From an uncultured Thermoleophilia bacterium (lineage in GTDB: Bacteria; Actinomycetota; Thermoleophilia; Miltoncostaeales; Miltoncostaeaceae), in NCBI GenBank assembly GCA_947258365.1, contig CAMYIK010000003.1:1-36998 (forward strand): a stretch of 36,998 bases of DNA, written 5' to 3'. Each line of letters opens with the position of its first letter. The stretch's first letter is position 1. The translations under genes and the position numbers were made by a program. Of the stretch, positions 8,276 to 25,200 are shown piece after piece. The notes below the pieces were generated by a model. The model was not told where the DNA came from. It was given only the letters and a program-made list of their open reading frames with translations, and ran no database searches.

Positions 8276-9268
8276 ATGCAGGTACGCCCCAATGAACCCG
8301 TGCTCGCGGGCGCCTTCCGCAAGGACCCCGCCGACGAGGCCTTTCTCGGCGACTTCAACCATGCGCTCGCTGACTTCGAGGATGGCTCGTACGGCGATCT
8401 GCCGGAGGAGTTCCCCACCCTCCATGTGATCGGCGCGCCGCGCTCGGGCACGACGCTGCTCTACCAGGTGCTGGGCAGCGGCTTGGACATCGGCTACGTG
8501 AACAACCTGGTCGCGACTTTTTGGAGAGCGCCGGTCACCGGCCTGAGGCTTGCCCGCAAGCTCGGCCTGGATCGACTGGAGTCATCTTTCGACTCGGCCT
8601 TCGGCCGCACTAGAAGCGTGTCTGAGCCGCACGAGTTCGGCTACTTCTGGAACTACCATCTTCGCTATCCCGATCTGTCAGAGCGCGACCCCGATCACGG
8701 GGCCACGATTGACTGGGAACGCCTGTCGCGCGTGATCATCAACATGTCGGCCTGCATCGGGCGCCCCATCAGCTTCAAGCCGATGCTCTTGATCTGGCAC
8801 CTGGAGGCGCTGGCGCAGGCAATGCCGCGTACCTCCTATATCTGGATCAGGCGCGAGCGTCGTAACACGGCCCTGTCGCTTCTGAAGATGCGCCGCTCAC
8901 TCAGAGGTACGGAGAACGAGTGGGCCTCGTTGAAGCCAGCTGCGGTGCCTGACGAGGATCCGCCCTGGCGGCAGGTCGCGGCCCAGGTGGTCCTGCTGGA
9001 GCAGCGCATCGCCCGCGCAGCGAAGACCCTGGGACCCGAGCGGGTGCTCGAGGTCCACTACGACGATCTTTGTGCCCAGCCGATGACGGTGCTCGAGAAA
9101 ACCCGCGATCTGTTGGGTCGCCAGGGGTTCGCGCCAGAGATCCGGATCGATGCGCTCGCGCCATTTTCGCCTCAATACAACGCCGAGCTCGAGGCGGAGT
9201 TCGGCGAGCGGGTGGACGAGGCCCTCGAGGAGGTCGAGCGACAATTCGCGGAGGTCAGCGATGAGTGA
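8276..9268 (+). CDS. Sulfotransferase family protein
   Basis: 5'-PSB P-loop HVIGAPRSGTTLLYQVL near the N-terminus and C-terminal VHYDDLCAQPMTVLEKTRDLLGRQGF pattern. Confidence 0.85.
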   Translation: MQVRPNEPVLAGAFRKDPADEAFLGDFNHALADFEDGSYGDLPEEFPTLHVIGAPRSGTTLLYQVLGSGLDIGYVNNLVATFWRAPVTGLRLARKLGLDRLESSFDSAFGRTRSVSEPHEFGYFWNYHLRYPDLSERDPDHGATIDWERLSRVIINMSACIGRPISFKPMLLIWHLEALAQAMPRTSYIWIRRERRNTALSLLKMRRSLRGTENEWASLKPAAVPDEDPPWRQVAAQVVLLEQRIARAAKTLGPERVLEVHYDDLCAQPMTVLEKTRDLLGRQGFAPEIRIDALAPFSPQYNAELEAEFGERVDEALEEVERQFAEVSDE

Positions 9269-10370
9269 CGCACCAACGGTGCTCGGGCGTGTCGAGGCGC
9301 CCTTGGTGAATACCAACGAGCCCGATGCTCAGGTCATCGAGCTGCCGCTCCAGGCGTTCTCTGAGATCGCGGTCGGCGATCACATCTGCACCCTCGAGAC
9401 CAGCAAGGCGACCGTCGAGGTCGAGTCCGAGCACAGTGGCTTCGTCGGTCCGTTGACCATCAAGCTGGACGACATCATCAGCGCGGGTGATCTCATCTGC
9501 GAGGTGTTCGACGCGATGCCCGACCAGTCGCAGGTCTCCGACGCCGCCGCCGCGGCTGCTGACGCGGGCGTGAAGATGACCAAGAAGGCGGAGGCGCTGG
9601 CCCGAGAACTCCGCGTAGACCCCTCCGGCCTTCCGACCGGTCGGTTCGTCACCGAGAAGGAGGTCCGCGCCGCGGCTGCGGCTGCGACCCCGGTCGAGCT
9701 GAGCAACGATCTCATCGGGCAAATCAGCGATACGGCGTTGGTCATTTTCGGTGGTGGAGGCCTGGGCAAGACGATCATCGACCTCGTGGGCGCGGCGAAG
9801 ACCTACGAGGTGATCGGAATCATCGATGAGGGCCTCGAGGGCGGCGATGAGGTTCTCGGCGTGCCGGTGCTCGGTGGTCAGCGCTACCTGGCTCCTCTGG
9901 CCGAGGCGGGTCTGCGATACGCAGCGAACGCGGTCGGAGCGATCGGTCGGATCACCACCCGAACGAGGGTCAGTGAGCTGATCTCCGACGCCGGACTGCG
10001 AGGCGCTGTCCTCGTGGAGCCGACGGCGTCCATTGCGGACTCCGCCGAGCTGGACGATGGCGCGCAGATCTACGCGCAGGCGGTGGTCTCCGCTGCGGCC
10101 AAGATCGGCGCCAACACGATCATCAACACCGGCGCGATCGTGTCGCATGACTGCGTTATCGGTGCGAACACCCACGTTGCTCCGGGGGCCGTCTTGGCCG
10201 GCGAGGTCACTGTCGGTGAGGGCTCGCTCGTCGGTATGGGTGCTACGGCCTCGGTCGGCCTCGCCATCGGCGCGCGCGCGGTCATCGGCAACGGGAGCGT
10301 GCTGACGGCTGACGTGCCCGACGGCACCTTTGTCTCGGCCGGCACCGTGTGGTCCGGGGAGCGAAGCTAA
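9261..10370 (+). CDS. Fusion: lipoyl-binding domain + E3/E1-binding (PSBD-like) segment + NeuD/PglD-type hexapeptide-repeat acyltransferase
   Basis: Start at ATG 9261 (ATGA overlap with sulfotransferase), not the longer 9150 ORF. Lipoyl motif GDHICTLETSKATVEVESEHSGFV (Lys49 codon 9405-9407). PSBD-like KMTKKAEALARELRVDPSGLPTGRFVTEKEV. PglD/NeuD-like VIFGGGGLGKTIIDLV...EVIGIIDE...VLGVPVLGG and LbH repeats INTGAIVSHDCVIGANTHVAPGAVLAGEVTVGEGSLVGMGA. Confidence 0.88.
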   Translation: MSDAPTVLGRVEAPLVNTNEPDAQVIELPLQAFSEIAVGDHICTLETSKATVEVESEHSGFVGPLTIKLDDIISAGDLICEVFDAMPDQSQVSDAAAAAADAGVKMTKKAEALARELRVDPSGLPTGRFVTEKEVRAAAAAATPVELSNDLIGQISDTALVIFGGGGLGKTIIDLVGAAKTYEVIGIIDEGLEGGDEVLGVPVLGGQRYLAPLAEAGLRYAANAVGAIGRITTRTRVSELISDAGLRGAVLVEPTASIADSAELDDGAQIYAQAVVSAAAKIGANTIINTGAIVSHDCVIGANTHVAPGAVLAGEVTVGEGSLVGMGATASVGLAIGARAVIGNGSVLTADVPDGTFVSAGTVWSGERS

Positions 10371-10518
10371 GCCGGGGTACTGCCCCGCGAGCGCAGTGAA
10401 CGGACGGCATAGCGAGCGCCGCGAACGACGCCCCTTTGCCGGGCTTCATCGCGCAGGATGTTGACACCGTCGCAGACGTGAAGCCACCGGGCCTCACGGG
10501 AAGAGATTCGGGGTGACG

Positions 10519-11355
10519 TTACGCCGTCCGGGACGGGGTACCCATATGCCTCCAGCACGGGGAGCGCGATGCGCTCGATGCGGCGCTGGACGGCGACGGC
10601 ATCTGTGACTCGTACTTGCGCTGATTCCGCGTCACGACCGTCGTTCGTCCGCGCGATGCGCCGACGGGCTCGGCATGACCCGGAACGGCCAGCATGGAGC
10701 CTTCGAACTCCAGGCCGAGGAACTCCGAGAGGCGACGAAGTTCTCGGACCGGGTCATCGAGCAGGTCCTCGAACCGCACCTCAGCGATGTTCGGCCTGTG
10801 GCGAGCGGCCTGCCGTCGAAACTCGCTGATTCCGTCGACCCACCGCTGGGCGGCGCGAAACATGTTCTTGCCCCACGTCCGGTGTGATGACAGCGCATGG
10901 TCGCGGGCATCGCGCACGATGTGCACGATCCGGGCACTCGGAAAGAGTCGGACCAGCGCCTCGACGGAGACGAGGTACTCGGGCGTCTTGTCACCCCAGA
11001 GGACGTCGCCGCTGTCGTCGATTCGCGCGGCATGGCGCATGAGCGCCTCGTGGACGCCCTGCAGCGTGAAACTGCGGCACCTGGCGTACCACTCATCCGC
11101 CGAGATGACCGGCTCGTCGATGAAGTCGCAGTCATCGAAGTACGGCAGGCGGCGGGCCTGAGCGCAGAACCGCTCGAAGCGACGGCGATCTGTCTGATCG
11201 CCGTCGCGGTCCCAGTTCTCGATCCAGAGAGGGAGAAAGTGCGTCTCGACGATCGCCGGGGATACGCGAGAGTGCCCACTGAGCATCTCGCGGAGCATCT
11301 TCGTACCTGACCGGGGCATGCCGACGACGAAGATCGGACTCGTGGGCGGCGTCAT
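10519..11355 (-). CDS. Sulfotransferase family protein; C-terminus probably frameshifted near 10600-10606
   Basis: P-loop FVVGMPRSGTKMLREMLSGH, ARIVHIVRDARDHALSSH 3'-PB motif, VRFEDLLDDPVRELRRLSEFLGLEF. After RKYESQ the frame becomes low-complexity, while the other frame continues DAVAVQRRIERIALPVLEAYGYPVPD. Confidence 0.82.
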   Translation of the reverse strand: MTPPTSPIFVVGMPRSGTKMLREMLSGHSRVSPAIVETHFLPLWIENWDRDGDQTDRRRFERFCAQARRLPYFDDCDFIDEPVISADEWYARCRSFTLQGVHEALMRHAARIDDSGDVLWGDKTPEYLVSVEALVRLFPSARIVHIVRDARDHALSSHRTWGKNMFRAAQRWVDGISEFRRQAARHRPNIAEVRFEDLLDDPVRELRRLSEFLGLEFEGSMLAVPGHAEPVGASRGRTTVVTRNQRKYESQMPSPSSAASSASRSPCWRHMGTPSRTA

Positions 11356-11444
11356 CGTGCTCTTGCCGCCATCGTGCGACGAGGGGCGGTCACGAAGCGA
11401 CCGTAACGCCGCTCTTGTAAAGGGTGGTTAGCCCTTTGCAGGCT

Positions 11445-11462
11445 CGCCCGCCGAGGCGGGCG
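11445..11462 (+). terminator. Hairpin in sulfotransferase-E1beta spacer; role uncertain
   Basis: CGCCCGCC-GA-GGCGGGCG perfect repeat followed by TTCTT on + strand; a second hairpin GTAAAGGG/CCCTTTGC lies just to its left. Confidence 0.4.
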
Positions 11463-11476
11463 TTCTTGGCGGTTCT

Positions 11477-12499
11477 CTAGACCGCGGCCGGGTCGAGTGC
11501 CAGCACGGCGTCACGAACCTCGCCGGCGCCGGGCAGCATCATGTTCTCGAGGTTCGGCGCGGAGGGGATGACCCCGTCGTTGGCGGCAACGCGGCGCACC
11601 GGCCGGCGGAGCTGGCCCCAGGCGGCCTCGGTCACCTGTGCGGTGATCTCCGCGCCGATCCCGGCGGTGAGCGTGCCTTCCTCGGCGGTGATCAGCGCGC
11701 CGGTGCGACCGACCGATTCCAGGATCGGAGCAAGGTCCAGCGGCAAGAGTTCACCCAGGACGACGATCTCGCAGAACACCTCGTGCTCGAGGATGAGCTC
11801 GGTCGCCGCCTCGACGGCGATCGGCAGCATGCCTCCGTAGGTGACGATGGTCGCGGCGGCCTCGCCGAAGTCGTTGCCGGAGAGTGTCAGCGCCGGGTAT
11901 GTGCCGGAGCCTTCGCGAACGCTCAGCTCGTCGATGTAGCCGTTCTCGGGCCGCCGGTTGGGGCGGCCGTACATGAGCTTGTTTTCGATCAGGAAGACCG
12001 GCTCGTCGTCGTCGATCGCGGCGTGGGTCATCGCCCGTAGGTCGTGGTACTCGCTCGCGGCGACCACCCGGATGTTCGGCACGCCCATGAGCAGTTTCTC
12101 GAGCGACTGGCTGTGGGTCGGCCCGTATCCACGGCGTCCACCCATCGGCGTGCGCACTACCAGAGGCAGGGTCACCTGGTCGTCGTACATCTCGCGGAAC
12201 TTCGAGATGCCATTGATGATCTGGTCGAAGCCGAGCGCGATGAAGTCGCCGAACATGATCTCCAACACCGGTCGGTAGCCGCGCAGGGCCATGCCCGCCG
12301 CCACACCGAACAGCGATGCCTCGCTGATCGGGGTGGTGATAACTCGCTCCGGCCAGCGATCGCTGAGCCCTTGGCTCACCTTGAACGCTCCGCCGTACGG
12401 GTCCAGTAGGTCTTCGCCGATCAGATAGACGTCATCGCGACGCTCGAAGGCCTCGTGAAGGCCGCCGTTCAGCGCCTGGACACAGCGCTCGGACCTCAT
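11477..12499 (-). CDS. 2-oxoacid dehydrogenase E1 component, beta subunit (pyruvate/acetoin dehydrogenase-type)
   Basis: VYLIGEDLLDPYGGAFKVSQGLSDRWPERVITTPISEASLFGVAAGMALRGYRPVLEIMFGDF...MGGRRGYGPTHSQSLE. Confidence 0.93.
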   Translation of the reverse strand: MRSERCVQALNGGLHEAFERRDDVYLIGEDLLDPYGGAFKVSQGLSDRWPERVITTPISEASLFGVAAGMALRGYRPVLEIMFGDFIALGFDQIINGISKFREMYDDQVTLPLVVRTPMGGRRGYGPTHSQSLEKLLMGVPNIRVVAASEYHDLRAMTHAAIDDDEPVFLIENKLMYGRPNRRPENGYIDELSVREGSGTYPALTLSGNDFGEAAATIVTYGGMLPIAVEAATELILEHEVFCEIVVLGELLPLDLAPILESVGRTGALITAEEGTLTAGIGAEITAQVTEAAWGQLRRPVRRVAANDGVIPSAPNLENMMLPGAGEVRDAVLALDPAAV

Positions 12500-13398
12500 G
12501 CCTGGACCGCTCCGGCCACGGGGGCGGCCAAAGCCGCCTCTCGGGCGTCCGCGACTCGCCGCTCCGCCGCTTGCTCGATGTCCGCGCGTAGTTCCGGATC
12601 CAGCCGATCGGCAATCAGGGCGATCGGGTCCGAAGAGGCACGACGCGCTTCGATCTCCGCGGGATCGCGCGTGTCGTCACCCTTGCTGTGCGGACTAAAG
12701 CGATACGTGTCCAGCACCATGAAGAAGGGCTCGCCGGTGGCGCGAATCCGCTCCACGGCGCTTCCCGCGGTCGCGTGGATCTCCTCGACGTCCGTGGTGG
12801 TGATCTCCGCGGTGGGGATTCCGAACGCGGCTGCGCGGGCGCTGATGGAACCGGAGACCGCGAGCTCTTCGGGTGTGGATTGGGCGTAGTGGTTGTTCTC
12901 GACGACGACCATCAACGGCAGCCGCCACAGCGAGGCCATGTTGAGGCACTCATAGAGGGCGCCCTGGCCAAGGGTGCCATCACCGATGAAGACTGTCGTC
13001 ACCGCCCCGCTCTTTCGCTCCCGCTCTGCGAGGGCAATGCCCGTCGCGACTGGCACGATGCTGCCCTGGATGCCGTTGGAGTAGAAGTTGCCCCGGCAAA
13101 GGTGCTGGCTGCCGCCCTTGCCGCCACAGGTTCCCGTGGTGCGGCCGGTGACCTCGGCGATGAGCCCCTCGACATCGTCCGTGAACGCGACGTAGTGACC
13201 GTGACAGCGGTGGTTGCTGAAGATCACATCCCGCTCAGAATCCAGATGAGAGATCACTCCCGCGGCGGTCGCCTCCTGTCCGATGCAGGTGTGGGTGGTG
13301 CCGTTGATCTCTCCTGCCGAGAACATTTCGAGCAGGGTCTCTTCAAGACGTCGAATGACGTACATCTGTTGGTAGAAGCGGGCGAGATCGGACGTCAT
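12496..13398 (-). CDS. 2-oxoacid dehydrogenase E1 component, alpha subunit (TPP-dependent)
   Basis: TPP motif GDGTLGQGALYECLNMASLWRLPLMVVVENN; HRCHGHYVA; start chosen at MTSDLARFYQQMYVIRRLEE. Overlaps the E1beta ATG by 4 bp. Confidence 0.93.
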   Translation of the reverse strand: MTSDLARFYQQMYVIRRLEETLLEMFSAGEINGTTHTCIGQEATAAGVISHLDSERDVIFSNHRCHGHYVAFTDDVEGLIAEVTGRTTGTCGGKGGSQHLCRGNFYSNGIQGSIVPVATGIALAERERKSGAVTTVFIGDGTLGQGALYECLNMASLWRLPLMVVVENNHYAQSTPEELAVSGSISARAAAFGIPTAEITTTDVEEIHATAGSAVERIRATGEPFFMVLDTYRFSPHSKGDDTRDPAEIEARRASSDPIALIADRLDPELRADIEQAAERRVADAREAALAAPVAGAVQA

Positions 13399-13516
13399 GC
13401 GTCGGGGCCCCTCGAGGGGCGCGGACCTGCCCGCGCAACCCTTCAGCAAAGGGGGCGCAACGGACTATAGATGGACTGTCATACGGCTGCGCCCGGCCAG
13501 GCACAGCCGTACTGGA

Positions 13517-13984
13517 CTAGAGGCTCGCGTGGCGGATCGGTGCCGCCTCGTGCCGCTCGGCCATGAAGAAGTCCGGGCCGACCAGGCTCATGAAGGCGGC
13601 GAAGCCTTTGTTGTCACGGGCTCGTTCGCCGATGACACCCCGGAGCTGCGGCTGCCACACCAGAGAGCTCACGGGGTGAATCGACCACTTGTCGCGCTTG
13701 AAGCGTCGCCAGCAGGCGCGCTCACCGCTGTCGCAGATGACGGCGAGACCGTCGATCAAGCAGGCGAGACCGTCATCGATCTCCCCGATGCTGATCTGCT
13801 CGAAGACGTGATCCAAGAGCAGATCTGATGTGTCGGTGTTGAGCAGGCGTCCCGCGTCGCACCGCGACCATTCGTCCACTGAGCGGGTGGTTCGTACGAA
13901 CCACAGCGGGCGCTCGTCGTTGGTTCGGTAGGGCGTACGGCTGGTTCGGGGTGCCTGATCGGGAGAGGGGACTACGCAGATCAC
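13517..13984 (-). CDS. Hypothetical protein upstream of E1 genes
   Basis: 155-aa ORF (...PLWFVRTTRSVDEWSRCDAGRLLNTDTSDLLLDHVFEQISIGEIDDGLACLIDGLAVICDSGE...) with balanced composition; no family recognised. Confidence 0.6.
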   Translation of the reverse strand: MICVVPSPDQAPRTSRTPYRTNDERPLWFVRTTRSVDEWSRCDAGRLLNTDTSDLLLDHVFEQISIGEIDDGLACLIDGLAVICDSGERACWRRFKRDKWSIHPVSSLVWQPQLRGVIGERARDNKGFAAFMSLVGPDFFMAERHEAAPIRHASL

Positions 13985-14246
13985 AATGGCTCCTTGGAAA
14001 ATCGCGCTATAGGGGTGCGGACCAGGTCGTGTGCGGCTTCGTCTCGCCCCGCCTCGGAGAGCACGGCCGCGGTTGCCATCGTCCGGCCGAGGGGGCGGCG
14101 GGGATGGCGGGTGGGGTGTTGGGGGTTCGCGGCAACGGGCTCTCCGGTCTGATGAACCCAGCAGACCAGGGCGCTGTTACACGCTCGTCACAGACGAGCC
14201 TCCAAAGGGGGAGAGCACCCCCAATCGGGCTATGCCGGCGGCGGGC

Positions 14247-17200
14247 CTACAGGAGAGACGCGTAGAGCTCCCGCGTCTCGTCGCTCGGCTCGACGCCGAG
14301 CGATCCGCGCAGGGTCGCGCGGCACGCGTGGAACTGGCGAAGCGCAAGCGCGCGCTCCCCTGCGGCCGCGTAGGCCTTCATGAGTGCCCGGTGTAGCGCC
14401 TCGCGCTCGGGGTCCGTCGCGAGCAACTCCTGGTACCGCGTGATCGCCGCCACAGGCCGGCCGTTCGCCTGCAGAGCGTCGCCGAGGCGCTCGAGCAGTG
14501 CTGAGCGGCTGCGCTCCAGCTGCGATCGGGCGCGTTGGGCCCATTCGTCGTACGGGAAGTCAGGCAAGAAGTCGCTCGTCCAGAGAGACTCAGCCCGCAG
14601 CAAGCGCTCAAGTCCGGAGTCATCCTCGTTGCCGGGGTCTGCCAGGGCGAGGAAGTCGGCGGCATCCCAGGAGTCCTGCTCGCCGAGCTCCAGCCGGTAG
14701 ACGTCCCCGTCGCGACTGATCATGGATCCGCGCGAGCGAGCGCTGGTCAGCGGATCGAGCGTCCGGCGCAGCGCGTGCAAGGTGGTGTCCAGAGCGCGTG
14801 ATCCTCGCGATGGCTCGAGATCAGGCCAGAGCTCATCCAGGAGCTTGTCGCGGTGCACACCGCTCCTGCCGGCGCAGATCAGCGCGCCGAGCAGCACCCG
14901 TGCCTTGGGCCGGCCGAACTCGGCGTCGGGAACCCGGGTGCCCGAGCGGTAGAGGCGCAGACCCCCAAAGCTCTCGATGCGAATGGGAGGTCGGGGTCGG
15001 GTCTCGAGGATCGCCTTGGCGCGCTCCCCGGCTGCGGCGACCTGAGGCTCAGGGTCCGAGACGAGGGCCGACAAGGTCGAGGGATCGAGGTCCGTGTGCT
15101 CATCAATCGCCTCGCCAAGGGCGACACGGGCCTCCACGTGCGCATCGCCGAGCCGCGTCACGCACTCGTCGAGTACCTCTCGACCGCAGGCGGCGGCGAT
15201 CCTCGCAACGCCGTGCGGATCGCCGATGCCGTTCCGCAAGGCGTGGGCGAGAAGCGGCGCGGCCCGGGGACGCTCCCGGCGCGACCACAAGAAATCGAGG
15301 TCGAGTTCGGCCGTGAAATCGATGGCCTGCCGCAGCCGGGCGTCACCGATCTCTCCTGGGCCATGCAGGTCCGCCGAGATCAGCGCGGCGCGCGCCAAAT
15401 ACCACGACAGCTGGTACCGCTCTCCGAACTCGCACGCCTCCTCGATCAGCTCCCGAGCCAACTTGAGCCGGCCGGTCTCCTCGGCCGCCAGGCTCATTTC
15501 GCACAGCGACATCGGGGCGTCATAGCTATCCCCATAGGCCTCGAGTTCTTCGCGAGCGATGGCGATGTGCGACAGGGCACGCTGCTCGTCGCCGCGCGCG
15601 GCTGCCACCCGAGCGCACGAGGCACTGACGCGGTACGCGGTGCTGGTCGTGCCGCCGGACGTCGAGTGTGGGGTGGCAATCTCGGCGATCGGGATGGCGC
15701 TCTCCCAGTCCCGCAGACCGGCATACGCCAGCAGCCGCCACCACATGCTGAGGGTCTCCGCCGCTGAACCCATGCCGAGTGCCTCGCTGAGGTCCATGAC
15801 GGCCTTGGCCTCGAGCAGGCTCTTCCGGAAGCGTCCGATATCGGCGTAGATCACGACTCTGAAGCCCATGCCGAAGGCGCGCAGCATGTTGGCGTCTTGG
15901 ATCTCGATGGGCTCCAGCCGTGCCAGGGCCTCGTCGATCAGGTCGAGCGCGCGATTGACGTTGCCGGTGGGGAACTCCATGTAGAAGGCCCGCAACATGT
16001 CGGCCGTGGGTCGAAGCAGCGGCGACTCCTGCTCGCTGCCAACCTCCAGCGCGGCCGCGATGTGCTGCTCTGCCTCCTCGGGTCGGCATGCCTGCGCGTG
16101 GGCCACCCCAAGGATGAGGTGCACCATCCCAAGCCCCCGAGCCGAGCGATCCAGCGCGTCGAGGTACTTCTCGCCGGAGGCGATTCGGATTTGGGGGTTG
16201 ATGCCGTAGGTCAGCATTCCCTGCTGGAAGCGATAGAGCGCCGCGGAAGCGGCGTCGTGGGCGTTTGCGGCGATGAGCGCCTCGATCGCGGCGGGCCAGA
16301 GGCGGAAGGCGTCGTCGCGCTGGCGCTGCAAGTACGCCAACAGCGCGTGAGCCATCAGCAATCGCGGGTGCCGCGCCCGGACCTCTTCAGGGATGCGAGC
16401 CAGCCACCCCGCGAGGGTCTCCGCTTCAGGAGTGGCGACCATGGCCTCGGCAACAGGATCCAAGGCCTTGGCGGCTTCGTCGAAGAGCCCTACCGAGAGG
16501 TAGTGGCGCACGGCCTCCTGGTAGTCGCCGGCCTCCTCCCAGGCCTCGCCGGCGCGCGCGTGGATGGCCTGCAGGCGATCCGGAGCGTGCTCTTCGACGC
16601 GCCGGCGCAGGAAGGCTTCGAAGAGGTGGTGGTAACGAAACCACTGGCCTTGGAGCCGCACGATGAACAGGTGATCCGCTCGAAGGGCGTCGATGAGCTC
16701 GCGCGCGTCGTCCCTGCCGGTTACATGCGCCGCGAGCTCAGGCGTGAATCGCTCCAACATGGCGGTGTCGGTCAGGAAGTGCTGCTGGTGCTCCGGGAGC
16801 GACCCGAAGACCTCTTCGGCGAGGTAGTCGAAGTGAGGTGTCTCGCCCGGGTCGGCCAGGTCTCCGGTCTCCGGGCGCGTCGCGAGCAGCAGGCCGCTGA
16901 CCCAGCCCTCGGTCTTTTCGTGGACCTCGCCGATCTGGACCTCGTCGAGCGCGTCGTCACGATCGGCGAGCAGCTGCACCGCTTCGTCGTAGGAGAGCGT
17001 GAGTTGCCGCTCGGCGATCTTGGTCAGGTCCCCGGCCGAGACGCGGCCGAAGCCCGAGGGGAGATTGCGGCGACTGGCGAGCACGAGGTGGACATTCGGC
17101 GGAAGGTCCGCGATTAGCGCCGCGAGGCCATCGAGGGTGGCCTCGTTCAGCGCGTGAACATCATCGAAGGCGATTACGAAGTCGTCGGGAATGGTCGCGA

Positions 17201-17573
17201 CGATCTCGTTGGCGAGCAGCTGAACGTGGTCGGCGTCGGCTCCGCCGGCGGTGAGACCGCTCGCCACTCCGGGAAATCCGTCCGTGAGCCCGGCGGCGAT
17301 ATGGCTCACCAGCATCTCCGGCGTCGCGAGTCGTGGATCACAGGACAACCAGATCCATGGCAGTTCGGATTCCTGCATGCACTGCGCGAGCAAAGTGCTC
17401 TTGCCATAGCCGGGCCCGGCGACCACCGTCACCATGCGCCCGCTGAGCCCCGCGACGGTGCGCGAAACCAGCGCAGGCCGGCCGAGGCAATGTGGCGGAA
17501 GGCGCGGCGGCAGGAGCCGTGTTCGCAGCACGCCACTCGGTGCGGCCGGGGACGTTGCAGAAGTTGTGCTCAT
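14247..17573 (-). CDS. Large transcriptional regulator: MalT-like STAND NTPase + TPR-like region + C-terminal wHTH/BTAD (SARP-type) domain
   Basis: N-terminal VTVVAGPGYGKSTLLAQ (Walker A) and FVIAFDDVHAL (Walker B). C-terminal FGGLRLYRSGTRVPDAEFGRPKARVLLGALICAGRSGVHRDKLLDELWPDLEPSRGSRALDTTLHALRRTLD...PEREALHRALMKAYAAAGERALALRQFHACRATLRGSLGVEPSDETRELY. Confidence 0.88.
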   Translation of the reverse strand: MSTTSATSPAAPSGVLRTRLLPPRLPPHCLGRPALVSRTVAGLSGRMVTVVAGPGYGKSTLLAQCMQESELPWIWLSCDPRLATPEMLVSHIAAGLTDGFPGVASGLTAGGADADHVQLLANEIVATIPDDFVIAFDDVHALNEATLDGLAALIADLPPNVHLVLASRRNLPSGFGRVSAGDLTKIAERQLTLSYDEAVQLLADRDDALDEVQIGEVHEKTEGWVSGLLLATRPETGDLADPGETPHFDYLAEEVFGSLPEHQQHFLTDTAMLERFTPELAAHVTGRDDARELIDALRADHLFIVRLQGQWFRYHHLFEAFLRRRVEEHAPDRLQAIHARAGEAWEEAGDYQEAVRHYLSVGLFDEAAKALDPVAEAMVATPEAETLAGWLARIPEEVRARHPRLLMAHALLAYLQRQRDDAFRLWPAAIEALIAANAHDAASAALYRFQQGMLTYGINPQIRIASGEKYLDALDRSARGLGMVHLILGVAHAQACRPEEAEQHIAAALEVGSEQESPLLRPTADMLRAFYMEFPTGNVNRALDLIDEALARLEPIEIQDANMLRAFGMGFRVVIYADIGRFRKSLLEAKAVMDLSEALGMGSAAETLSMWWRLLAYAGLRDWESAIPIAEIATPHSTSGGTTSTAYRVSASCARVAAARGDEQRALSHIAIAREELEAYGDSYDAPMSLCEMSLAAEETGRLKLARELIEEACEFGERYQLSWYLARAALISADLHGPGEIGDARLRQAIDFTAELDLDFLWSRRERPRAAPLLAHALRNGIGDPHGVARIAAACGREVLDECVTRLGDAHVEARVALGEAIDEHTDLDPSTLSALVSDPEPQVAAAGERAKAILETRPRPPIRIESFGGLRLYRSGTRVPDAEFGRPKARVLLGALICAGRSGVHRDKLLDELWPDLEPSRGSRALDTTLHALRRTLDPLTSARSRGSMISRDGDVYRLELGEQDSWDAADFLALADPGNEDDSGLERLLRAESLWTSDFLPDFPYDEWAQRARSQLERSRSALLERLGDALQANGRPVAAITRYQELLATDPEREALHRALMKAYAAAGERALALRQFHACRATLRGSLGVEPSDETRELYASLL

Positions 17574-17702
17574 GAGCGAGGTGCCGATAAGTGGTGCCGG
17601 GCCGGACGAATCATCCTAAAACGACCGGTAGGCCCGGCGAAACGGGGGGTGCACCTATTACGCAAGTCCATAGACGGCGTCGGTACCCTCTGCTTTCGTC
17701 TC

Positions 17703-19184
17703 GTGCGCGTGTTCCGGATCCCCACTCTCATACTCGCTGCCGCTGCCTGCGGTGCCTTTGCTGTGCCCGCCGCGGCGGCCGACCCGGTGATCAGCAACGG
17801 TGCGTTCCGAATGGGCGCCGACACGCTCTGGAGCAAGGGAGTCATCGGCACCGGCTCGACGGTCGCCGTCTTGGACTTGGGCTTCGGGGGCCTCGACGCG
17901 TCGATCGCCGCCGGCGAGTTGCCCGCCCTCGGCATGGTCCAGCGCAGCTTCGACGAAGAATTCGGCATCGAGGGCCGGACCCCAGTGGGGTCGGGGACCC
18001 AGCACGGAACGCGGATGGCGGAGATTCTCGTCGACGTCGCGCCGGGTGCACGGTTGCTACTGGTCAACTACCACACCCAGGAAGAGTTCCAGGACGCGGT
18101 CGACTGGGTGATCACCCAGGCCCCGACGGCGGTCAGTCACTCTAATTCGTTCCTGATCCCCCCGTTTGACGGCACCGGCCCGAGCGCGGCCGCCGTGAAT
18201 CGCGCCGCGGCCGCCGGGATCCTCTGGGTCAACTCGGCGGGCAACTTCGCGGAGCGGCACTGGACGGGGCGCGCCTCGGCCCAGGGCACCCTCTTTCCTC
18301 TCGAGGTCGCCCCCGGCCAGGTCCTCTCCTACAGCGTTACGCCCTTTGGCCCCTCGAGCGACCGCGTCAGGGCCGAGCTGCAACAGCGGGGGGCTTCAGG
18401 CGAATGGGATACCCGGACCAGCGTCGTGGCGGGTTCTGATGGAGCTTTCACCGACACGATGGTGAGTGACGGTGGTGAATGGCGCCTACGCCTCACCCAG
18501 ACCGTCGGCACCGACTCACTCGTTCGCGTCTTCTCGCGCACCGTCGGTTTCGGTGGCCTGGCCGTCGGTGACGGCAGCGTCCCCACCCCGGGCGACGCCG
18601 CGGGCTCATTGACCGTGGGAGCGGTGCCATGGACCGGGACCAACCTGGCGCCTTATTCATCGCGAGGCCCTACCCAAGACGGGCGCCAGAAGCCGGATGT
18701 GGTCGGACCGACCTACGTGACGGCAAACCGCGCGTGGCCAGGCACCGCCGGTACCTCGGCCGCGACCGCACACGTGGCAGGGGCCGCCGCGCTGATCGCC
18801 CAAGAGCAACGGACCATCGGCGGCCCGACCGATCTTGCGACCCTGCGCGGCCGGCTGACCGGCGCCGCGTTCGATCTGGGCGACCCGGGCTTCGATCCGT
18901 CCTATGGCGCAGGCATGGTGCGCCTCGATGCAACGCCTCCCAAGGTCACCCTCGCGGTGAACGATGATCCGCGTCCGCTCCTCACCGGGATCGTCCGTGA
19001 TCAAGGCACCATCGGCGAGGTGGTCGTCTCGATTGACGGAAAGCGGGTCAAGTCGCTTCGCTCCGCGCAAGTTCGCGTGCGACTACCGCGAATGACGGCG
19101 GGACGCCACCGCGTCGTCGTCGCCGCGAGCGACACATCCGGCAACCGCGTAACGACTGGTCGATGGGTCCGCGGCCGCCGCTAG
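17703..19184 (+). CDS. Secreted S8 (subtilisin-like) serine peptidase
   Basis: Signal peptide (FRIPTLILAAAACGAFAVPAAAA). Catalytic contexts VAVLDLGFGG (Asp), GTQHGTRMAEI (His), VNSAGNFAERHW (Asn), GTSAATAHVAGAAAL (Ser). Start at GTG 17703 or 17709, not 17154. Confidence 0.85.
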   Translation: MRVFRIPTLILAAAACGAFAVPAAAADPVISNGAFRMGADTLWSKGVIGTGSTVAVLDLGFGGLDASIAAGELPALGMVQRSFDEEFGIEGRTPVGSGTQHGTRMAEILVDVAPGARLLLVNYHTQEEFQDAVDWVITQAPTAVSHSNSFLIPPFDGTGPSAAAVNRAAAAGILWVNSAGNFAERHWTGRASAQGTLFPLEVAPGQVLSYSVTPFGPSSDRVRAELQQRGASGEWDTRTSVVAGSDGAFTDTMVSDGGEWRLRLTQTVGTDSLVRVFSRTVGFGGLAVGDGSVPTPGDAAGSLTVGAVPWTGTNLAPYSSRGPTQDGRQKPDVVGPTYVTANRAWPGTAGTSAATAHVAGAAALIAQEQRTIGGPTDLATLRGRLTGAAFDLGDPGFDPSYGAGMVRLDATPPKVTLAVNDDPRPLLTGIVRDQGTIGEVVVSIDGKRVKSLRSAQVRVRLPRMTAGRHRVVVAASDTSGNRVTTGRWVRGRR

Positions 19185-21268
19185 CTCTTTCGCTCGGGCT
19201 CGCTCTCGCCGTCCTCGTCACCGCTCCGGCCTTCTCCTCGCCGGTACCGGTCGAGGTCCAGGCCGAGCCAGGAAAAGCTGAGGTCGCGGCCAAGGCCCTC
19301 CGCGCGGCGGGCCATGACATCGATCGTCGCGACGGTGCCTCACTGCAGGTCGCCGCTGAGCCGTCTGAGGTCGTGGCGTTGGAAGAGTTGCCCGGAGTCG
19401 CGGCTGCGGGTGAAGCGCCGACCGCCTTCGGCGACGCGATCAGCAGCATCGGGCTACAGCGCAGCGGCGCCGCGGCGTTCGCTCCGATTTCCGGTGACGG
19501 CTCCGGGTTGATCATCGCGGTGCTCGACCTGGGATTTGGCCCCCACATCACCACACGTCAGGTCGAGCGGGAGTTACCGCCACCCTCCCGGCTCGTACAG
19601 ATTTCGTTCGATCCCGTACATGGGCTGGCGGGGCGCAACGCTTACGGCAACGCGACCAACCACGGCGAGCTGGTGGCCCAGACGGTCTACGACTACGTGC
19701 CGAAGGCCCGATACATCTTCGCTAACTACCGCACGCGCCAGGACTTCGTTCAGGCGGTGGACTGGCTGGCTCAGGTCAAACCGAACATCGTGGTGCACTC
19801 CAACAGCTTCCTGGAGGGCCCCTTCGACGGCACCAGCCCCGAGGCCCAAGCCGTAGACCGAGCCGCCGCCGCGGGCGTCCTCTGGTTCAACTCAGCCGGC
19901 AACTACGCCCAACGCCACTGGGAAGGCCCATGGGCCGACCTCGATCTCGATGGGGCTCTGGATCTAGGCACCAACGGGGAATGGACCTTCGGGCGCGAGC
20001 TCGGCAAGCCCACGACATTCACGCTGAGTTGGGACTCCCCGGAGTCCGGAACGACCGACCTCGCCCTCGCGATGGAACGTCAGGAGCCCGACGGCAGTTG
20101 GTCACCAGCGGTCATCTCCGACGACGATCAGACGGCGGGGGCACGCGAGTCGGAACGCTTCGTGGGCTACCGCAACGGCAAGGGCGGCACCTTCCGCATC
20201 CGGGTGACGCGCACGAGCGGACCGCCACCCGAGGCGATCACGATCTTCTCTCGCGAGATCGATCTTGCCGGCGCGGGGGGATCCGAGGGCTCCAGCCAGC
20301 CCGGGCCGGGTGACGCCGCGGGCGCCATCAGCGTGGGAGCCGTCGACTGGCGCGGCGATGGTCGCAAGACCTACTCATCGGTAGGGCCGACCGATGACGG
20401 CCGCCGCAAGCCTGATTTCGTCGCGCCGACCAACACGCGCGTAATGGGGACGGCCGGGCCCCGTCGCGTCGGCGGAACCTCGAACGCGGCCCCGAACGCC
20501 GCCGGAGCGGCGGCGATCGTGATGGGGATGCTGCGCAAAGCCGGACTCGACTTCAGCGCGGCCGCCGTTCGTGAGCGACTCTTTCAGCGCCCGTTTGATC
20601 TTGGCGATCCGGGACCCGACTTCCGATTCGGGTTCGGGCGGGTGCGCGTCGAGCATGATGCCCCGAGGCTCACACCCAAGAGCCCCGCGCCGTACTCGTT
20701 CGTGCGCGGCCGGGCGAGGGTCGACGTGGCGCCCTTCGACACCTCGCGACTGGCGAACTGGCAGCTGAGCATCGATGGGGCCGCGGTCACACCTGTGCGC
20801 CGCACTGGTCGCATCGCGCCGCTCATCGATACTCGCCGGCTGACCGACGGGTGGCATCAGATCCGCGTGGTCGCCGAAGACTGGCCGGGCAACACCGGTG
20901 TGGGCGAGTGGTGGGTCAGGGTCGACAACACCAACCCCCGGTTGGTGGTGCGTCGCACCAAGATCGCCGCGCGGAAACTCCCGGTGCTTCCCGAGGAAAT
21001 CGGACCGGAGGAGCGCTCCCGGCGGGTGCGCGCCGCTCGCCGGGTGCCTCGGGGCGTGCGCCTGCAGATCCTCGCGCGCGACAACTTCGGCGGACGCCTT
21101 ACCGTGGGCGTTCAGGTCCGTGACAAGCGCGGCAACGGCGTGAGGCCCGGCGCCAAGCGATGGCTCCCCGTCGGGAAGCTCCGCCGAGGGCGCTATCGCG
21201 TTCAGCTGCAAATGAAGGACGTGGCCGGCAATGTCACTCGCGCGGAGAAGCGCATACTCGTTCGCTGA
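19163..21268 (+). CDS. Secreted S8 (subtilisin-like) serine peptidase, paralog of the preceding gene
   Basis: IIAVLDLGFGPH (Asp), ATNHGELVAQTV (His), FNSAGNYAQRHW (Asn), GTSNAAPNAAGAAAIV (Ser); start overlaps upstream gene by 22 bp. Confidence 0.85.
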   Translation: MGPRPPLALSLGLALAVLVTAPAFSSPVPVEVQAEPGKAEVAAKALRAAGHDIDRRDGASLQVAAEPSEVVALEELPGVAAAGEAPTAFGDAISSIGLQRSGAAAFAPISGDGSGLIIAVLDLGFGPHITTRQVERELPPPSRLVQISFDPVHGLAGRNAYGNATNHGELVAQTVYDYVPKARYIFANYRTRQDFVQAVDWLAQVKPNIVVHSNSFLEGPFDGTSPEAQAVDRAAAAGVLWFNSAGNYAQRHWEGPWADLDLDGALDLGTNGEWTFGRELGKPTTFTLSWDSPESGTTDLALAMERQEPDGSWSPAVISDDDQTAGARESERFVGYRNGKGGTFRIRVTRTSGPPPEAITIFSREIDLAGAGGSEGSSQPGPGDAAGAISVGAVDWRGDGRKTYSSVGPTDDGRRKPDFVAPTNTRVMGTAGPRRVGGTSNAAPNAAGAAAIVMGMLRKAGLDFSAAAVRERLFQRPFDLGDPGPDFRFGFGRVRVEHDAPRLTPKSPAPYSFVRGRARVDVAPFDTSRLANWQLSIDGAAVTPVRRTGRIAPLIDTRRLTDGWHQIRVVAEDWPGNTGVGEWWVRVDNTNPRLVVRRTKIAARKLPVLPEEIGPEERSRRVRAARRVPRGVRLQILARDNFGGRLTVGVQVRDKRGNGVRPGAKRWLPVGKLRRGRYRVQLQMKDVAGNVTRAEKRILVR

Positions 21269-21350
21269 GCAGTTGCTGCGCCAGCCGTTGACTCGGCAGG
21301 CGTCATTGCTCACAATTCCGGGAGTTCTCACCCAGCATGAAGGGGGCTGC

Positions 21351-21554
21351 ATGCCGCTCGATCAGGACCTGAAGAGCAAGCTTCGCGACCGCGTTTCGAC
21401 TGCGAACAAGTCGAATGTGACCGAGGTCATCGCCGAGGTTGAGGAAGCCCGCGGCACGCTCGCCGAAGACGACAAGGACCACGCGCGCCTCGGTGGCTGG
21501 CTGGAGGACCTCTCCCAGGTTGCCCGCGGCTCGGTGCCGGGGAAGTTCAGCTAG
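21351..21554 (+). CDS. Small hypothetical protein
   Basis: 67-aa ORF MPLDQDLKSKLRDRVSTANKSNVTEVIAEVEEARGTLAEDDKDHARLGGWLEDLSQVARGSVPGKFS. Confidence 0.65.
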   Translation: MPLDQDLKSKLRDRVSTANKSNVTEVIAEVEEARGTLAEDDKDHARLGGWLEDLSQVARGSVPGKFS

Positions 21555-21564
21555 GCGGTCTGGC

Positions 21565-22047
21565 TCAGCGCCGGCCGTGTGCCGGCGCGAGCTGCTGCAG
21601 TACGCGTTGGAGACGGCGGGTCTCGGCTAAGGCGTTGACCTGCCGTCGGTCTCGGCTGATGTTGCGGGCGCGCTGGATACGCTCCTCGCGCCCCTCGCGG
21701 GCCTCGACCCACCGCTCGTATTCTCGGATGAGATCGAGAACCGTGTCGGCGATCTCGCGATGCTCGGCGGGGGAAAACGGTTTGCCGTCGACCGCCAGGA
21801 GGCGGTCGGCGGCCTGATAGTGCAAGGATCCCGTTGCGCCGCTGGCTGAGACGTCGGTGACAGAAATGCGGATCTGAGCGCCACGCCACTCCCGTTTCAG
21901 GACACCAGGCTCGACCGCGGGTCGGAATCCGAAAGCACGCAGCCGACGTCGCTCAGCGAGTGCTGACCACTGGGCGTGGGCGGTGGCAATCACCGTCGCG
22001 ATACGCGAGGTGAGCACCGACTCATCGGTGTCATTTCGAGAGACCAC
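21565..22047 (-). CDS. Hypothetical protein (start uncertain)
   Basis: ORF extends to 22173, but the upstream part looks non-coding and overlaps the candidate rpoB promoter; in-frame GTG starts at 22047 and 22017. Confidence 0.5.
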   Translation of the reverse strand: MVSRNDTDESVLTSRIATVIATAHAQWSALAERRRLRAFGFRPAVEPGVLKREWRGAQIRISVTDVSASGATGSLHYQAADRLLAVDGKPFSPAEHREIADTVLDLIREYERWVEAREGREERIQRARNISRDRRQVNALAETRRLQRVLQQLAPAHGRR

Positions 22048-22069
22048 GGAGGCGGCTACGTCAAAAGAT

Positions 22070-22098
22070 TTGCATTTCGCGACACAGACGCTTAGACT
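22070..22098 (+). promoter_or_regulatory. Candidate housekeeping promoter for rpoB
   Basis: TTGCAT - 17 nt - TAGACT, about 150 nt upstream of rpoB. Confidence 0.5.
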
Positions 22099-22252
22099 AC
22101 CGTCTTTGGCCATCCGTCCATCCGGATTCGCCTGCTTTCTTCCTGTCGCGCCGCCGCCAGTCAGTGACAACACCGCATTCGTTGGTGTCGTGTGTTGCTG
22201 CCTGCCGTAACCCGGCAGCTACTACCCCGCCCATGCCAGGAGGCATCGAAGA

Positions 22253-25200
22253 GTGAGCACACGAACCCGTGAACGCCGCTCCTTCTCGAAACTCGACAAG
22301 GTCCTGGATGTCCCGAATCTAATCGACATCCAGAAGTCCTCGTTTGAGTGGTTCCTCAATGAGGGACTGAAGGAGACAATCCGAGATATATCACCGATCG
22401 AGGATTTCACGGGCACGCTTGCCGTTGAGTTCGGGAAGTACACGCTCGGCGGGTGGGAGCCCGGGATGGATCTCGACGAGATCCAGCCCAACAACATGAT
22501 CCGTGAGTGCCGCGAGAAGGACCTCGTCTACGCAGCGCCGCTCACCATGGAGGTCGCGTTCATCAACCGGGAGACCGGTGAGATTCGCGAGCAGAAGGTC
22601 TTCATGGGCGATCTCCCGCTCATGACTAAGGCGGGCACCTTCATCATCAACGGCACCGAGCGAGTCGTCGTGACTCAGCTCGTGCGCTCCCCCGGCGCAT
22701 ACGTCATGGAGCCGAAGGACGCGGAGAAGCAGGTCTTCATCGCGAACCTGATGCCGGCTCGTGGTTCCTGGGTGGAGCTCGAGATCGACAAGCGCGGACT
22801 GGTCAACGTCCGCATCGATCGCAAGCGCAAGCTGCCGGTCACCACTTTGCTGATGGCGCTCGGCTACACCCGAGACGACATCGTCAACCTCTTCCCGAGC
22901 ACGCTCGACCCCAAAGAGGTCAACCCCTTCATCCGCAACACCCTCGAGAAGGACGACACCGAGGGTGCGCCCGAGAGCGGCAACAAGAAGAGCCTCAAGG
23001 AGATCGACCAGGTCGTCTCCGAGATGCAGAAGCTCGCCAAGGGCATAGATGGGCTACCCAGCGACGAGCGCGCTGAGATCCAGGCCGAGATCGAGAAGCT
23101 CGAGGCCAAGCTCGACCTGCGCGCAGGCGAGTCGATGCAGCACGCCCTCATCGAGGTCTTCAAGAAGCAGCGCCCGGGCGAGCCGCCGACGGTGGACAAC
23201 TCCCGTTCGCTGGTCCGGTCACTCTTCTTCGACCCCAAGCGCTACGACCTGACTCGCGTCGGGCGCTACAAGCTGAACGCGCGCCTCGACCTCGACCTCG
23301 ATGCCGATATCCGCACGCTGAGCAATCCGCGCTTCACCGGCCGCCTCAGCGGCATGGACGACGACATGGTCGAGCTGGTCCGGCGCCTCATCGCGCTGCC
23401 GCTGACTGTCGGCGCCAACGTGGATGTCAAGGATCTCGCCGCCGAGACGGCCCTCGCGCCGCGCGAGGAGATCGCCGGCGAGCTCGACGAATACGAGCAC
23501 TTCGGCAACCGTCGTCTGCGTACCGTCGGTGAGCTGATCCAGGAGGCCTTCCGGGTCGGCTTCTACCGCATGGAGCGCGTCGTTCGTGAGCGGATGAGCA
23601 CCGAGGACGTCGACACGATCACCCCGCAGACCATCATCAACATCCGCCCAGTGGTCGCGGCGCTGAAGGAGTTCTTCGGCTCCTCGCAGCTCTCTCAGTT
23701 CATGGACCAGACCAACTCACTGGCCGGGCTTACCCACCGACGCCGTCTCTCGGCGCTGGGTGCCGGCGGTCTGACCCGCGAGCGGGCTCCGATCGAGGTG
23801 CGCGATGTGCACCCGACTCACTATGGCCGCATGTGCCCGATCGAGACTCCGGAAGGACCGAACATCGGTCTGATCGGCTCGCTCGGCAGCTATGCCACGG
23901 TCAATGAGTTCGGCTTCATCCAGACGCCGTACCGGGTGGTCAAGAAGGGCAAGGTCGTCGATCAGATCGAGCGTCTCGACGCGACCCAGGAAGAGCACAA
24001 GATCATCGCCCAGGCCAACGCCGAGATGGACGACAAGGGCAACCTGATCAGCCCGGTCCTCTGCCGCCAAGGCGGCGAGCCGGTCATGTCCGAGCCAAAC
24101 GACGTCCACTACATGGACGTCTCGCCGGCCCAGATCGTTTCGGTCGCGACCTCGCTGATTCCGTTCCTGGAGCACGACGACGCGAACCGCGCCCTCATGG
24201 GTGCCAACATGCAGCGCCAGGCGGTGCCGCTGATGGTCACCGACGCGCCATTGGTCGGTACCGGCATGGAACGCCGTGCCGCGATCGACAGTGGTGACGT
24301 TGTGGTGAGCCGTACGAAGGGCACCGTGGTCGCGGTCGACGCGAACCACGTGATGATCGAGGACCCCTCGGGGGAGCTTGAGCACTACGGCCTGCACAAG
24401 TTCACGCGCAGCAACCAGGGCACGCTGATTCATCAGAAGCCGATCGTCGCCTTGGACGACACGGTGAAAGCCGGCGACGTACTCGCCGACGGCAGCTCGA
24501 CCGACCAGGGCGAGCTCGCGCTCGGCAAGAACATCCTCGTCGCGTTCATGAGCTGGCAGGGCTACAACTTCGAGGACGCGATCATCATCTCCGAGCGCCT
24601 CGTCAAGGACGACGAGCTCTCCTCGATCCACATCGAGGAGTACGAGATCGACGCGCGCACCACCAAGCTGGGCGCCGAGGAGATCACCCGCGACATCCCC
24701 AACCGCTCCGAGGAGTCCCTTGCGGACCTCGACGAGCGCGGCATCGTCCGCATCGGCGCCGAGGTCAGCTCCGGTGACCTGCTGGTCGGCAAGGTAACGC
24801 CGAAGGGCGAGACCGAGCTCACCGCCGAAGAGAAGCTGATTCGCGCCATCTTTAAGGAGAAGGCCGGAGAGGTCCGAGACACCTCGCTGAAGGTGCCTCA
24901 CGGTGAGGGCGGCAAGGTCATCGACGTCAAGACGTTCAGCCGCGACGGCGGTGACGATTTGTCGCCGGGCGTCAACGAGCTGGTTCGCGTCTACGTGGCG
25001 AAGCGCCGCAAGATCGCCGAGGGCGACAAGCTCGCAGGACGCCACGGAAACAAGGGCGTCATCAGCAAGATCGTTCCCGAAGAGGACATGCCTTTCCTCG
25101 AGGACGGCACTCCGATCGACATGATCCTCAACCCGCTCGGCGTGCCGAGCCGGATGAACATCGGTCAGATCCTGGAGACCCACCTCGGGTGGGCCGCCGG

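Follow-up and report, generated by a model that had tools for sequence, protein, structure and literature searches.

A lipoyl arm fused to a NeuD/PglD acyltransferase, together with a dedicated E1, suggests a CoA-independent acyl relay in Thermoleophilia

Introduction

Lipoyl arms normally hand acyl groups to CoA, and NeuD-type sugar acyltransferases normally draw theirs from acyl-CoA. What becomes of the acyl group when both are built into one polypeptide? The window analysed here, a stretch of 36,998 nucleotides from an uncultured Thermoleophilia bacterium (contig CAMYIK010000003.1), encodes such a protein, in which an E2-like lipoyl arm runs into a NeuD/PglD acyltransferase. The original prediction, made from the sequence alone, was that the acyl group could pass from the arm straight to a sugar or small-molecule acceptor with no free acyl-CoA in between. 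Here we describe the anatomy of this fusion, its distribution, its partner genes and its nearest relatives, and weigh what they say about the source and the destination of the acyl group.

Results

The fusion gene (positions 9261–10370, forward strand) is open throughout from its ATG at 9261 to its stop codon at 10368–10370 and encodes 369 residues; reading of the ORF, sequence matches in Pfam, NCBIfam and the PDB, and an alignment with orthologs bear out the coordinates, domain order, Lys49 and histidine context first assigned to it. At the N terminus is a lipoyl domain (9285–9512, residues about 9–84) with an NxNEP loop and an ETSKA site, recognised in the alignment, by E2 lipoyl domains in the PDB (1gjx, E=8.7e-6, residues 22–82) and by Pfam Biotin_lipoyl (E=2.9e-8, residues 34–81, above the gathering cut-off); the lipoyl match on which the original prediction depended is significant. 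Biotin_lipoyl is found in 14 of 14 fusion homologs, and in the alignment of all 14 both Lys49 (9405–9407), the residue predicted to be lipoylated, and His296 are invariant. A reading as a biotin carrier protein was rejected: there is no AMKM-type motif, and every member has ETSKA or ETTKA.

Behind the lipoyl domain lies a segment resembling a peripheral-subunit-binding domain (PSBD; 9570–9674, residues about 104–138). Alone among the four Pfam families expected of the protein, E3_binding stays below its cut-off, matching 2 of the 14 members with a best E of 0.053, while Biotin_lipoyl, PglD_N and Hexapep all pass theirs. When the 14 orthologous segments were combined into a profile and compared with the PDB, PSBDs nevertheless came out on top (2eq8_C, E=2.7e-4; 1w4i, E=0.01), and the loop in the fusion falls about three residues short of its canonical length. 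A lipoyl domain, a linker and a PSBD-like segment follow one another in the order seen in E2 components, which likewise have E1alpha and E1beta partner genes. The fusion differs from E2s in having ET(S/T)KA where ordinary E2s read E-(T/S)-D-K at the lipoyl site, and E(T/S)DKA over the same five residues, in its shortened PSBD loop, in the absence of an E3 gene near it and in lacking the 2-oxoacid_dh catalytic domain (PF00198), for which Pfam returned no match.

In its place are a PglD_N Rossmann-like domain (9735–9977, residues about 159–239; Pfam PglD_N E=6.8e-10 over residues 160–239, above the gathering cut-off) and a left-handed beta-helix acyltransferase domain (10017–10334, residues about 253–358; Hexapep E=1.8e-14, likewise above its cut-off). 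Residues 160–358 score 169.7 bits against NCBIfam NeuD_NnaD (TIGR03570), whose cut-off is 160.8; the most remote fusion, in genome G180, scores 131.5 and falls under it. The best PDB sequence matches are the Neisseria pilin-glycosylation acetyltransferase 4m98 (E=1.2e-26, residues 159–359) and Caulobacter PerB 4ea7 (E=5e-26). His296 (10146–10148), in a VSHDC motif equivalent to that of PglD His125 and Pcryo_0637 His142 (PMC8040287), is the predicted catalytic base. An AlphaFold model computed from an alignment of two rows had a mean pLDDT of 42, and we draw no inference about the fold from it.

As judged from its sequence, then, the catalytic half belongs to the NeuD/PglD/VioB/PerB N-acetyltransferases, with which it shares PglD_N and the beta-helix at full length, the catalytic histidine motif and a score above the family cut-off. 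It departs from them in its N-terminal lipoyl and PSBD segments, in its own linked E1 genes and in one feature of the tail. Nearly all sampled unfused NeuDs end in G-x-P-A-(R/K), whereas the complete rows of the close fusions read A-G-x-x-W (S-G-x-x-W once); in the window the replacement is AGTVW (10338–10352), as seen in the alignment. The last turn of Pcryo_0637 and of PglD contains a conserved cis-proline that shifts conformation with CoA, and beyond this proline the tail is folded back against the helix (PMC8040287). The replaced tail of the close clade fits an altered donor but does not prove that CoA binding has been lost.

Of 299 Thermoleophilia genomes sampled, 14 encode the full fusion; they span three families at 30–81% identity, 13 of them reaching about 50% or higher and G180 (L045) standing at 30%. 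The two halves are fused in every ortholog, where separate genes would have spoken against the original prediction. Across 398 genomes of the phylum, full-length fusions occurred only in Thermoleophilia, the other matches being to the NeuD half alone; three queries of plasmid records returned no full-length fusion, and a scan of viral contigs gave one NeuD-like match only. The partial literature collection searched held no precedent for lipoyl–NeuD or lipoyl–beta-helix fusions, for lipoyl enzymes in sugar clusters or for flagellin glycosylation involving pyruvate dehydrogenase. The nearest named relative is a Thermoleophilia metagenome-assembled genome (JAOTZF010000002.1).

Directly upstream of the fusion is a sulfotransferase family-3 gene, SULF1 (8276–9268, forward strand; Pfam Sulfotransfer_3 E=4.6e-16), whose 3' end overlaps the 5' end of the fusion gene by 8 bases. 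As read from the sequence, the fusion gene has its ribosome-binding site, GGAGGT (9250–9255, forward strand), within the end of SULF1, and translational coupling of the two genes is likely on this arrangement. A SULF1 ortholog occupies the same position in 13 of 13 close orthologs. Two further genomes, G031 and G043, keep the sulfotransferase ortholog (L090:9752-10681 and L091:9808-10764) and have neither the fusion nor the dedicated E1 described below.

On the opposite strand follow a second sulfotransferase, SULF2 (10519–11355; Sulfotransfer_3 E=8e-38), and the two E1 genes. SULF2 is frameshifted near its C terminus, its continuation sitting in another frame, and the copy in L005 is intact; a link between SULF2 and the fusion or E1 is uncertain. 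E1beta (11477–12499, reverse strand) comprises Transket_pyr and Transketolase_C and was assigned by Pfam, NCBIfam and trees. E1alpha (12496–13398, reverse strand) starts at an internal ATG of an ORF that opens at 13449, matches NCBIfam PDH_E1_alph_y at E=3e-74, below the curated cut-off, and has human PDH E1alpha as its PDB match. Aligned with the human enzyme, it has Thr and His in place of Phe and Tyr at what we take to be pocket positions; this only suggests a substrate other than that of human PDH. We noticed no ACP gene beside the fusion.

The block between rplL and rpoB reads SULF1, fusion, SULF2, E1beta, E1alpha, a BTAD-type regulator and two subtilases, and the entire island (8276–22253) splits a neighborhood that is continuous in most bacteria. 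Subtilase-family proteases also lie near sulfotransferase–fusion genes in several genomes (17154–21268 in the window, and L037, L038, L043 and L093); in the window and in L005 two of them stand in tandem.

To describe how E1 and fusion are distributed, we scored the dedicated E1beta as present at E of at most 1e-75 in the same 299 genomes. It occurs in 19 of them, including all 14 fusion genomes (Fisher's exact test, P=3e-20, genome relatedness ignored). The five others (G051, G075, G147, G176 and G278) each have, directly behind E1beta, a second kind of lipoyl–beta-helix protein, which we call LipLbH; G176 additionally has, at a contig edge, the final part of a NeuD fusion, and G009, G033, G171 and G262 have both fusion types. 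All 19 dedicated E1 genomes hence carry a lipoyl–beta-helix protein (P about 2e-30 for either type, again ignoring relatedness). The E1 genes adjoin the NeuD fusion, in more than one orientation, in 10 genomes (G000, the source of the window, G152, G167, G061, G146, G168, G262, G134, G025 and G180); in G009 and G171 they lie away from it and adjoin LipLbH; the contigs of G033 and G113 end too soon for adjacency to be judged. No canonical E2 stands beside the dedicated E1 genes, PF00198 genes being present in 14 of 14 fusion genomes at other places. LipA is found in 13 of the 14, and the genome without it is 73% complete. In a tree that also holds 18 housekeeping E1betas from related genomes, a 100/100 branch sets the dedicated E1betas apart from these. 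The fusion and the dedicated E1 are a gene partnership.

LipLbH takes the finding beyond the original prediction: as its sequence reads, a second and different beta-helix acyltransferase bears the same kind of arm. It is about 520 residues long (for example L041:808-2388, forward strand; also L092 and L094–L100) and joins a lipoyl–PSBD arm to a WcaF/WbbJ-like, rather than NeuD, beta-helix and a further C-terminal domain. In one Thermoleophilia family it lies directly behind E1alpha–E1beta genes of the same clade as those of the NeuD fusion, which it faces in some genomes, and its tail retains G-V-P-A-(R/K). We argue the likeness of the two arms from their shared loop and motif because the segment tree, with 69/79 at its deep split, is too short to decide their common descent. 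Immediately upstream of the E1alpha–E1beta–LipLbH operon are sulfatase-family genes (L094:5973-7145 and L095:5814-8347), accompanied in L095 by a phosphodiesterase-family gene.

We wondered what the dedicated E1 and its arm resemble outside Thermoleophilia. In the plasmid collection, the sequences that matched E1beta best were RenH from the renieramycin cluster (39.6%, E=7e-76), a gene on a Streptantibioticus cattleyicolor plasmid (42%) and one from Streptomyces NBC_01136, where an NRPS cluster runs ACP, E1alpha, E1beta and a lipoyl-E2-like protein. These three and a Nonomuraea sequence, placed irrespective of its genomic context, fall with the Thermoleophilia dedicated E1betas on one side of a 100/100 branch in a tree whose opposite side holds 20 housekeeping or other E1betas. 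Within this clade the branching order is not firm and the sister group is unsettled, the G180 E1beta going weakly with the NRPS ones. The E1betas share R-x-P-x-G-G-x-R-G-Y-G-P-T-H-S; the E1alphas share G-T-x-H-T-C-x-G-Q-E (with Y or A for C in some), N-H-R-x-H-G-H and, with few departures, H-S-K-G-D-D.

The kinship extends to the arm: the lipoyl domains of RenI and of its S. cattleyicolor and NBC_01136 counterparts carry, as both fusion types do, an ETSK site together with an N-x-N or closely similar loop. For QncN/QncL/QncM and SclQ1-4 (PMC6335953), and likewise for NapB/NapD (PMC7570522), published work describes a relay in which a ketose phosphate supplies the C2 unit and an acyl carrier protein receives it; the NapB/NapD unit originates from xylulose-5-phosphate (PMC9268379). 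On sequence criteria, the dedicated E1 and lipoyl arm most resemble these NRPS/PKS C2-unit relays (RenH/RenI, themselves related to QncN/QncL and NapB/NapD). The Qnc, Scl, Nap and Ren relays have in common with the fusion system PDH/transketolase-like E1alpha and E1beta of one clade, as compared for RenH and two NRPS/PKS-cluster E1s, and a lipoyl domain with the N-x-N loop and ETSKA site; in QncN/L/M and NapB/D the published acyl acceptor is not CoA (PMC6335953, PMC7570522), as is proposed for the fusion. They differ in that their arm, as in RenI, S. cattleyicolor and NBC_01136, bears a 2-oxoacid_dh-type acyltransferase and serves an ACP, whereas the fusion bears a NeuD/PglD beta-helix. The fusion can be classed neither with the E2s nor with the standard QncL-type relays, and the ordinary 2-oxoacid dehydrogenase setting in which it was first placed gives way, for the E1 and the lipoyl arm, to the glycolyl (C2) relays.

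The context of the remote homolog bears on the acceptor. In G180 the fusion lies in an operon (L045:5110-15822) of a GFO/IDH/MocA oxidoreductase, a DegT aminotransferase, E1alpha, E1beta, the fusion, a methyltransferase, a second DegT aminotransferase, an epimerase and a formyltransferase; a glycosyltransferase follows further downstream. The flanks of the operon (L102 and L103) encode flagellar and chemotaxis proteins, as read from translations, and the whole looks like a flagellin sugar island.

Discussion

We favor, with moderate confidence, a CoA-independent acyl relay from the dedicated E1 through the lipoyl arm and the NeuD domain to an amino sugar. The thiamine-diphosphate E1 (11477–13398) would make the acyl group, most likely from a ketose phosphate, and load it reductively onto the lipoyl arm at Lys49, while the PSBD may hold E1; because the E1 and arm are related to C2-unit relays, we predict that this group is most likely glycolyl (hydroxyacetyl). 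The arm would then bring its acyl thioester to the trimer formed by the NeuD/PglD beta-helices of the same chains, where His296 would take a proton from the amino group of the acceptor, an amino sugar linked to a nucleotide or a related one, to yield an N-acylated sugar, and an E3 encoded elsewhere would re-oxidise the dihydrolipoyl arm. The originally proposed passage from lipoyl arm to sugar without acyl-CoA gains strong, though indirect, support because a dedicated E1 co-occurs with the fusion, no canonical E2 is adjacent and the C-terminal tail is altered; the direct transfer itself is still something we infer.

An amino sugar as the acceptor is argued from the NeuD half, with its strongest context in the G180 operon, and the argument rests on domain homology and one remote (30%) homolog because the close clade has no adjacent NDP-sugar genes; that clade adjoins sulfotransferases only, which speaks against a relay to an amino sugar, and the acceptor is less certain there because the invariant neighbor is a sulfotransferase. 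The E1–lipoyl relay might accordingly be real while the beta-helix works in concert with the adjacent sulfotransferase and O- or N-acylates another molecule, for instance a lipid, a sulfated glycan or a carrier protein. The sulfatase- and phosphodiesterase-family genes beside LipLbH would suit such a role, as would the PglD_N residues that contact UDP, which are only partly kept: the Asp-Asp pair (positions as in PMC8040287) reads D-E, D-D or N-D in the fusions. Yet the catalytic half clears the curated NeuD/PglD cut-off, NDP-amino sugars are the substrates of its closest PDB matches and its remote homolog sits within an amino-sugar operon, and we regard a different acceptor as rather unlikely.

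The donor invites a further alternative, in which the beta-helix acts as an E2 catalytic domain that passes acyl from the arm to CoA, or uses acyl-CoA supplied nearby; acyl-CoA would then occur free as an intermediate, and the fusion would do no more than channel it. Beta-helix acyltransferases of the NeuD/PglD family do use CoA thioesters (PMC8040287), and LipLbH retains its G-V-P-A-R tail; against this, the close clade has replaced the tail bearing the CoA-linked cis-proline, and related NRPS relays bypass CoA (PMC6335953, PMC7570522). We consider a CoA intermediate improbable.

The arm might instead be a non-catalytic docking or assembly module on an ordinary acetyl-CoA-dependent NeuD, with the E1 serving another E2; housekeeping E2s do exist elsewhere in each fusion genome. 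The invariance of Lys49, the separation of the dedicated E1 clade from housekeeping E1 and the fact that in 19 of 19 genomes E1beta is never without a lipoyl–beta-helix protein make this very hard to credit. An assembly error or chance joining of two neighboring genes, conceivable in a fragmented source assembly (2.76 Mb, 337 contigs, 87% complete), is refuted by full-length fusions in 14 genomes of three families at 30–81% identity, of which G009 is assembled as a single contig, and its probability is negligible.

Returning to the relay from E1 to an amino sugar, we put forward more tentatively its broader form, in which the system offers a CoA-free route to N-acylated, specifically N-glycolyl, amino sugars and the arm is a portable unit with which at least two different beta-helix acyltransferases have been equipped. 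If this is true, the fusion and its own E1 would connect central sugar metabolism directly with a modified sugar, and the C2 relay of antibiotic assembly lines would have been rebuilt with other acyltransferases. It would give a concrete test for the origin of N-glycolyl or similarly unusual acyl groups on bacterial glycans, and its modular design, an E1 with a lipoyl–PSBD arm and an exchangeable beta-helix enzyme, may be searched for elsewhere.
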